A stretch of 64,000 nt of DNA, from contig JAAFIW010000001.1 of the NCBI GenBank assembly GCA_013297875.1, positions 62,001 through 126,000 of the forward strand, given 5' to 3'. Within the stretch, counting starts at the first letter, position 1. The number at the start of each line of letters is the position of its first letter. Positions 36,763 through 53,007 of this stretch are shown here, piece after piece. Below the pieces are notes generated by a model. The model did no database searches and had not been told where the DNA came from. It worked only from the letters and a program-made list of their open reading frames with translations. Source of the DNA: Comamonadaceae bacterium (GTDB lineage Bacteria; Pseudomonadota; Gammaproteobacteria; Burkholderiales; Burkholderiaceae_C). Both the position numbers and the translations under genes were made by a program.

Positions 36763-36790
36763 CACTGGGTTGAATCCAGATTCCGGGTTG

Positions 36791-36967
36791 AACCCAGAAT
36801 TTCCATTAGGGTTTGGATAGACAACGGATGCAGTTGCGAGTCAGTTTTGGCCCGACTGAGGAGCTCATGGCTTGTGCCATGGGCGACGAAGAGGGGCGAA
36901 AATGGCCGCAAATGCGCCGTTGGAATCCAAACAGCACCGCAGGTGCGCCTAATGGAAAATCTGGGTT
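36791..36967. repeat. Long-hairpin repeat, copy 1 (MITE-like)
   Basis: 177-bp element bounded by 20-bp terminal inverted repeats (AACCCAGAATTTCCATTAGG and its near reverse complement at 36948-36967). Inner arms also pair: GTTTGGAT...CAACGG with CCGTTG..ATCCAAAC, and CATGGC-TTGT-GCCATG at the apex. A second copy is at 52633-52810. No transposase gene inside. It lies 37 bp before amn. Confidence 0.85.
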
Positions 36968-37004
36968 GAAACCAATGTGTATCGCGCCTGGTCACAATCG
37001 GGCC

Positions 37005-52246: not shown

Positions 52247-52633
52247 ATGACGACACACCAATTCACCGTGACCGTGCAGCCGCAGTACCTGCCCCAGCAG
52301 TCAGACCCGGCGCAGCACGTCTACAGCTTTTCTTACACCGTGACCATCACCAACACCGGCCAGGTACCCGCGCAGCTGATCTCGCGCCATTGGGTGATCA
52401 GCGACGCCAGTGGGCATACCGACGAAGTCAAAGGCCTGGCCGTGGTCGGCCACCAGCCGCTGCTCAAACCGGGCGAATCGTTTCAATACACCAGCGGCAC
52501 CCGGCTGCGCGCGCCGCACGGCAGCATGCATGGCAGCTACTTTTGCGTCGGCGAAGACGGGCACCGGTTTGACGTGGACATTCCTGCTTTTGTCCTGGAC
52601 GCGGGCGGCGACAACGCACGGGTTTTGCACTGA
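52247..52633 (+). CDS. apaG: ApaG family protein
   Basis: 128 residues, single fibronectin-III-like domain. Conserved ApaG segments: YSFSYTVTITNTGQVPAQL, SRHWVISDASG, VVGHQPLLKPGESFQYTSGT and GSMHGSYF. The role of ApaG is uncertain (linked to Co2+ resistance and Mg2+ efflux in enterics). ATG 52247 (MTTHQFTV) is preferred; an ATG three codons earlier is in frame. Divergent from rpe. A long-hairpin repeat copy begins at its stop codon. Confidence 0.93.
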   Translation: MTTHQFTVTVQPQYLPQQSDPAQHVYSFSYTVTITNTGQVPAQLISRHWVISDASGHTDEVKGLAVVGHQPLLKPGESFQYTSGTRLRAPHGSMHGSYFCVGEDGHRFDVDIPAFVLDAGGDNARVLH

Positions 52634-52810
52634 GCCCAGAATTTCCATTCGGGTTTGGATAGACAACGGATGCAGTTGCGAGTCAGTTTTGACCCGACTG
52701 AGGAGGCCCATGGCGCGCGCCATGGGCGACGAAGAGGGTCGAAAATGGCCGCAAATGCGCCGTTGGAATCCAAACAGCACCGAAGGTTCGCCTAATGGAA
52801 AATCTGGGCT
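52633..52810. repeat. Long-hairpin repeat, copy 2 (MITE-like)
   Basis: 178-bp second copy of the element at 36791. Its terminal repeats begin AGCCCAGAATTTCC and end AAAATCTGGGCT; copy 1 has AACCC and GGGTT, so the pair changed on both sides. The apex stem is CCCATGGC-GCGC-GCCATGGG. It abuts the apaG stop. Confidence 0.85.
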
Positions 52811-53007
52811 GAGTAGGCGATGCCCACGCTGGACAAAGACGCCTGATCTGCGCAGCACAACTGCTGCAAGGCAAAGGTGACACACCAGCCACATTTGCAC
52901 CACCGGCTTTACCGCCGAGTTTCGCCAGAGCATGCGCGCACCGGCCCGCGAAACCCAGCCGTTTCATGGGCCTGTAGACTGCATAAAATTAAGTCTAATC
53001 AACCATC

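Follow-up and report, generated by a model that had tools for sequence, protein, structure and literature searches.

A probable IS1380-mobilised MITE with a strand-specific folded core that recurs between different transposon ends

The two long-hairpin repeats in the 64,000-nucleotide stretch of DNA analysed here (the window) are copies of one short element, a MITE that is likely to be mobilised by an IS1380-family transposase and to carry a selected, strand-specific folded core that acts in cis for the element's spread or tolerance. In the mechanism that we propose, an IS1380-family transposase would move the MITE in trans, acting at its CCCAGA ends, and insertion would duplicate 5 bp of a TTNAA-like target; the anatomy of these ends can be read directly, and the movement is deduced from it. 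Comparison of sequences shows that, on one strand, the core between the ends forms a long hairpin with a conserved tandem G.A loop below the apex. Lineages that spread keep this fold and inserted copies decay neutrally, the latter judged from 35 changes in one genome, and the same core also lies between at least three further sets of ends. Individual copies decay, yet the fold is retained in lineages and is common to elements with different ends; we therefore suggest that the core serves spread or tolerance in cis and not via one particular transposase, more likely as folded RNA than as folded single-stranded DNA.

Both repeats lie where an earlier note on this DNA had placed them, with inverted ends of 18 bp. 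The lengths of 177 and 178 bp assigned to them were too wide, because the outermost bases are target-site duplications (TTGAA on both sides of copy 1 and CTGAG on both sides of copy 2), and the corrected limits are given in Table 1. The claim that the repeats fold along their full length was borne out for copy 1, where the RNA fold of -107.2 kcal/mol compares with a shuffled mean of -56.0 (z -12.4), and DNA folding parameters gave a z of -11.1. Copy 2 entered at the exact stop codon of the upstream ORF, which we take to be apaG-like, and the TGA lies within the duplicated CTGAG. Immediately upstream of copy 1, CTGGGTTGAATCCAGATTCCGGGTTGAA (window 36765-36792) looks like remnants of more element ends.

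Table 1. Features of the two element copies, in window coordinates.
Feature	Position	Strand	Basis
Left target-site duplication TTGAA, copy 1	36788..36792	.	Sequence read
Element copy 1, 173 bp, CCCAGA..TCTGGG	36793..36965	+	Sequence, genome copies
Left terminal inverted repeat CCCAGAATTTCCATTAGG, copy 1	36793..36810	+	17/18 bases as in IS1380-family element L332
Putative folded conserved core, copy 1	36819..36922	+	Core model R3 (this copy among its building rows), 80.2 bits, E 2e-18
Tandem G.A internal loop, 5' side (GAGGA)	36858..36862	+	Opposite 36885-36889; A5 rows
Apical hairpin, copy 1	36863..36884	+	Fold and alignment
Tandem G.A internal loop, 3' side (GACGA)	36885..36889	+	A5 rows
Side hairpin, 3' arm, copy 1	36934..36946	+	Helix 8: 98.5% of cells paired
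Right terminal inverted repeat, copy 1	36948..36965	+	18/18 bases as in L332
Right target-site duplication TTGAA, copy 1	36966..36970	.	Sequence read
Left target-site duplication CTGAG, copy 2	52630..52634	.	Includes TGA stop of upstream ORF
Element copy 2, 174 bp	52635..52808	+	Sequence, genome copies
Putative folded conserved core, copy 2	52661..52765	+	Core model R3 (this copy among its building rows), 75.1 bits, E 4.1e-17
Apical hairpin, copy 2	52706..52727	+	Sequence and alignment
Side hairpin, copy 2	52777..52789	+	G->T at 52788 breaks one pair
Right target-site duplication CTGAG, copy 2	52809..52813	.	Sequence read

By their anatomy both repeats are MITEs, that is, non-autonomous DNA transposons. 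They have terminal inverted repeats, they are short and multicopy (27 full copies in the source genome) without a conserved protein, and an autonomous element with the same ends occurs in another genome of the order (L332). Target-site duplications, which the earlier note had proposed to look for, measure 5 bp and are exact at 21 of the 27 full copies, with one mismatch at the remaining 6; the target sites are TTNAA or near variants. That the repeats share no open frame of note also held, since each frame is open in at most 24 of the 39 relatives, and a protein-coding role is thus unsupported. The element is not itself a member of the IS1380 family, whose members encode a PF13701 transposase: it spans 173 bp and has no conserved frame.

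The best candidate source of the transposase is an IS1380-family element with matching ends. L332 is a complete element of this family (PF13701) with CCCAGATTTTCCATTAG at both ends and the target-site duplication TTAAT; it agrees with copy 1 at 18 of 18 bases of the right end and at 17 of 18 of the left. A second complete IS1380-type example, L330, has the ends CCCAAATT. In the source genome itself, 14 contig ends (L087-L100) bear the CCCAAATTTTCCATTAG ends of a collapsed multicopy IS beside TTNAA-like sites. Eight of the 14 are the same coding end, the longest piece of which (328 bp) encodes the C-terminus of an IS1380-like transposase, and the C-terminus of the L332 transposase resembles it. 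This IS is incompletely assembled, and its end differs at one base in 17. Its other, untranslated end has an inverted AATTTGGG about 76 bp inside, and the assembly breaks at the IS. When the interior of L332 and the IS ends of the source genome were compared with the element, only chance-length alignments were found beyond the terminal repeat.

PF13701 was also found more often in genomes that bear the element (14 of 36) than in those without it (48 of 363; odds ratio 4.2, p 0.0003), a comparison that takes two 399-genome draws of the order as the same genomes, as their handles suggest. The remaining 22 carriers had no PF13701 match, although assembly collapse will hide some of these genes. 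Two candidates were rejected. Stretches of 4-4.5 kb around the two PF13701 genes of the source genome contain no CCC[AG][AG]A[AT]TTTCCATTAG-like end at up to 4 mismatches, and for an inverted CCCAGAATTTCCATC pair 13.6 kb apart in C32 the sequence past the motif is, by eye, unlike the element.

Within the source genome the copies behave as if unconstrained. The 34 element matches comprise 27 full-length and 7 partial copies, 40 of 67 first-look candidates having been scored. The earlier note had read three paired differences between copies 1 and 2 as covariation, and each of them has another source. The outer A:T against G:C pair reflects two different duplicated target sites, which mimicked covariation because TTNAA-like sites are themselves nearly palindromic. 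The change in the small stem compares two unlinked rare mutations in different copies: A149 stands with G154 (alignment columns) in 24 of the 27 full copies, C149 is limited to copy 1 and L003, and T154 is limited to copy 2, in which it disrupts one of the consensus pairs of that stem. The apical T.G to C:G change is one-sided. An alignment of all 27 full copies yielded 68 consensus pairs (RNAalifold), none of them changed on both sides. Among 35 rare substitutions, defined as present in one or two copies and counted once, 10 kept a pair (expected 8.7), 17 broke one (18.8) and 8 were unpaired (7.6), where the expected values were obtained by drawing at random 5,000 times on this consensus. Within this genome the pattern that the note had named as speaking against its idea is thus present. 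The rare substitutions are spread as by chance, and therefore single copies decay. The inserted copies show no sign of selection on the fold, though weak selection may have escaped notice in this small sample of young copies. In subfamily B of a second genome, UBA2239 (17 distinct rows), there were just 9 rare changes (3 kept, 5 broken, 1 unpaired), a number too small to be informative. Covariation within a genome was therefore dropped as evidence for the fold, on the absence of both-side changes and the chance-like rare mutations. At G000:C42:193325-193602 in the source genome (G000), a truncated copy adjoins a full one (L010/L030).

These counts bear on two other explanations. If the element were a host-useful RNA part, such as a terminator, an mRNA stabiliser or an sRNA gene, kept by host selection at many sites, then the intergenic position of 27 of the 28 own copies examined (by a crude gene caller) and the very stable fold would be in keeping with it; the 28th copy overlaps an ORF that starts at a TTG inside the element. 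However, rare mutations in these copies break pairs at the neutral rate, and the copies take mixed orientations relative to their neighbouring genes. We regard this explanation as very improbable. The 11 against 7 copies between codirectional genes show no clear orientation bias, such as a function in mRNA might lead one to expect, and this also counts against the folded RNA of our own reading. Secondly, the element could be an ordinary IS1380 MITE whose hairpin is the relic of an inverted duplication, with paired changes made by copying between the arms (quasi-palindrome correction) and no selection at all. The seemingly unconstrained mutation of the copies, without any covarying pair, is what this explanation expects, and one arm-copying event yields changes on both sides of a stem. 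We nevertheless consider it distinctly unlikely, on evidence from other genomes that is given below.

The element is found well beyond its source genome. Of 100 related genomes four matched: the source genome, two genomes with one weak match each, and G094, at 72% identity, a 3.1-Mb genome of another family that is inferred to be Gallionellaceae bacterium UBA2239. By end motifs G094 holds about 180 elements, with 183 and 186 per strand against none for a reversed control. Some of its end pairs stand 44 to about 120 bp apart and represent a shorter variant or scaffold gaps; one close-set pair (L038) encloses a run of N. At G094:C43:9833-10183 two elements are separated by 5 bp, as though the duplicated site had received another copy. 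A covariance model search of 399 genomes of the order located the element in 36 of them, which represent 24 of 159 genera, and among the matches listed the carriers include Thiobacillus, Nitrosospira, Sulfuricella, Tepidimonas, Formivibrio citricus and a Methylophilaceae MAG. In this search, as in those of the class (369 genomes) and the phylum (398), 7 to 9 candidates per genome were scored under strict filters, and copy numbers and negatives are to be read as bounds. Target-site duplications around the 39 relatives in alignment A5 were exact in 22, had one mismatch in 12 and more in 5, and the element would therefore move as a unit across genera. At four loci (L175, L177, L178 and L181) the ends are the same but the elements are longer, reaching about 200-230 bp, and the fold of L177 has a larger side arm. 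Against plasmids and phages the window element had no match at E 1e-5, nor did the IS end against plasmids.

Across genera the fold is strongly preserved. The MAFFT alignment A5 consists of 39 chosen rows from up to 30 genomes, drawn from 88 matches over 73 sources; the selection passed over weak matches, one truncated copy, variants in length, an additional copy of one genome, and palindrome matches on the second strand. Alignments A7 (41 rows) and A8 (55 matches, 53 sources) were picked likewise, and A3 combined 15 of the 27 own copies with 22 distinct UBA2239 copies. In A5, 39 of 59 pairs were kept with both sides changed, and 96.3% of cells were paired against 84.9% after shuffling and 35-43% with slid partners. 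The covariation of 0.375 against 0.154 in shuffled alignments was reached in 0 of 500 shuffles, a significance that is overstated, as the rows are chosen and related and the shuffle controls carry no correction for kinship. The idea that a fold is preserved here, in place of simple transposon decay, is thus partly supported: it survives for the comparison across genera and fails for single copies of the source genome. The two are combined, in a transposon that also has a conserved fold. We read this as selection that would act on the spread of the element and not on single copies.

The tandem G.A loop sits just below the apex. In A5 its G.A is found in 39 of 39 rows, A.G in 36, G-C in 36 and the last A.G in 37, and the position between G-C and the last A.G varies (G.A 17, A.C 17, A.A 4, A.T 1). 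Copying between the arms would erase unpaired loops, and yet this loop is nearly invariant over 39 rows. The side hairpin, likewise, is retained on one arm only, which tells against the ordinary MITE as well.

A third line of evidence is the preference for one strand. The plus strand was set by the orientation of the window, not by stability, and in the core set by homology to the model. It was the better folder in 38 of the 39 A5 elements, with a mean gain of 15 kcal/mol in that set, and in 16 of 16; the consensus energy was -84.0 for the plus strand and -40.5 for its complement. Of the 55 cores, 54 folded better on the plus strand under RNA and DNA parameters alike, although arm copying would be strand-neutral. 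Pairs found on the plus strand only had G.T in 72 cells and A.C in 4, and those on the minus strand only G.T in 1 and A.C in 38, counts in which the strand is favoured by construction. On the 46 pairs found with either strand folded the preference is weaker (G.T 58 against A.C 28 cells; inferred events 45 against 25), and on the 25 core pairs whose commonest state is Watson-Crick it was 71 against 11 cells. RNA or single-stranded DNA of one strand is suggested, because no preference for a strand would be expected of a cruciform or of a symmetric protein site.

The core might accordingly be folded single-stranded DNA that acts when its strand is exposed in replication or transfer and joins the ends for any transposase, as attC sites and the ends of IS200/IS605 elements act in folded single-stranded form. 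Such a core would fit action in cis with several transposases, would account for neutral decay after insertion, and shows the same strand preference with DNA parameters. IS1380 transposases, however, are thought to act on double-stranded ends, and we judge this form of the core to be somewhat unlikely.

The strand-specific core that we favour is not confined to IS1380-type ends. The core, of about 104 nt, occurs in other orders and in another class, between at least three further sets of ends. A search of the class matched 11 of 369 genomes, the source genome included. One of them (G810) has two kinds of element, one with the known ends (L342) and one that is CTAG-flanked and GAGSCTGTCSGA-ended (L352), the second being a type that five more genomes carry (G530, G553, G609, G669, G779). 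The ends are GAGCCTGTGTAAAAACCCC in G719 (L348) and TAGGGGGTGTTAACAATTACC in G805 (L351), the latter a type found once. G703 (L347, L355) has an IS1380-like left end, CCCG[AG]ATATTTCAT, followed by the core and no clear right end, and G576 (L350) has IS1380-like ends without a match to the core model. With a core-only model 38 of 398 genomes of the phylum matched, 27 of them in one family of another class, where the examined loci were of the CTAG type or of a further type, GAGCCACTTGCAAAACTC. GAGSCTGTCSGA and GAGCCTGTGTAAAAACCCC may be one kind, and three to four further kinds of ends are counted depending on this. A CTAG-type element (L392) with 80% identity to L363 is carried by pMPC6-328K, a conjugative plasmid of Pseudomonas sp. 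MPC6, at a site with no gene in the incomplete gene table; plasmid carriage is a possible route between genera.

In the 55 cores of A8, an alignment that was built with the core model and so leans toward it, 24 of 27 pairs were changed on both sides, with a covariation of 0.698 against 0.201, and 93.4% of cells were paired against 64.9% after shuffling and 35-52% after sliding. The loop letters GAG and CGA were both present in 15 of 16 cores of the IS1380 type and in 7 of 7 of the last group but in only 20 of 32 of the second, and that lower share counts against our reading. An ordinary MITE would not account for a single core between different ends. We tentatively propose that the core might be a phylum-wide folded module, of RNA or single-stranded DNA, which is not tied to one transposase and whose holders spread better. 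This proposal would count at least four unrelated sets of ends (the IS1380 type, GAGSCTGTCSGA, TAGGGGGTGTTAACAATTACC and GAGCCACTTGCAAAACTC), with the fold kept despite near-total change of helix sequence.

The usual view of MITEs is that they are insertion sequences with internal deletions, and that their interior is unimportant. Here the interior, with its compensated pairs and conserved G.A loop, is the part most widely shared, and it is the ends that change. If this holds, some MITEs would serve to carry a selfish, structured nucleic acid able to switch transposase, and the question arises what role a folded interior plays in a transposon without a transposase of its own.

Rfam 15 gave no match at the gathering score in the 64-kb window, and under permissive settings 16 loci yielded a single tRNA gene, a neighbour of an element, all else falling below the gathering score; the matches inside an element were mir-310 (30.4 and 28.9 bits against 48) and MIR9486 (25.4 against 100). 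Among the literature matches listed, from a coverage with most subscription journals outside it, no title or start of an abstract describes the element. Its nearest known system by the ends is the IS1380 family (PF13701, DDE_Tnp_1_4), with ends CCCAGATTTTCCATTAG (L332) or CCCAAATTTTCCATTAG and a 5-bp TTNAA-like target-site duplication as in L332 and L330; the element differs in having no transposase and in aligning only over the terminal repeat and chance-length stretches. The minus strand resembles CGTC-tagged REPs in that part of the set has CGTC ahead of the apical palindrome. As outlined in their description, such REPs measure 20-40 bp with a stem of 8-9 bp (PMC3733652), whereas the element is a 173-bp unit with inverted ends and target-site duplications. 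Its tag base also varies (on the plus strand A in 21, C in 17 and T in 1 of 39 rows), and we therefore do not identify it as a CGTC-tagged REP. Correia, ERIC/RU and other small mobile repeats are likewise short, non-autonomous and foldable; they were compared by description only, and the abstract that covers them makes no mention of a core shared between unrelated ends (PMC2229807). QMITE1 and QMITE2 of Coxiella burnetii are outlined as stable stem-loop MITEs, some copies of which are transcribed as sRNA (PMC5896051). QMITE2, of about 190 bp, is like the 173-bp element a foldable proteobacterial MITE, and is set apart, by description and not by sequence, through target-site duplications of 7-9 bp in place of 5 bp (PMC5896051). 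In the same outline QMITE1 is reported without relatives in other genomes, whereas the core described here is spread over the phylum (PMC5896051).
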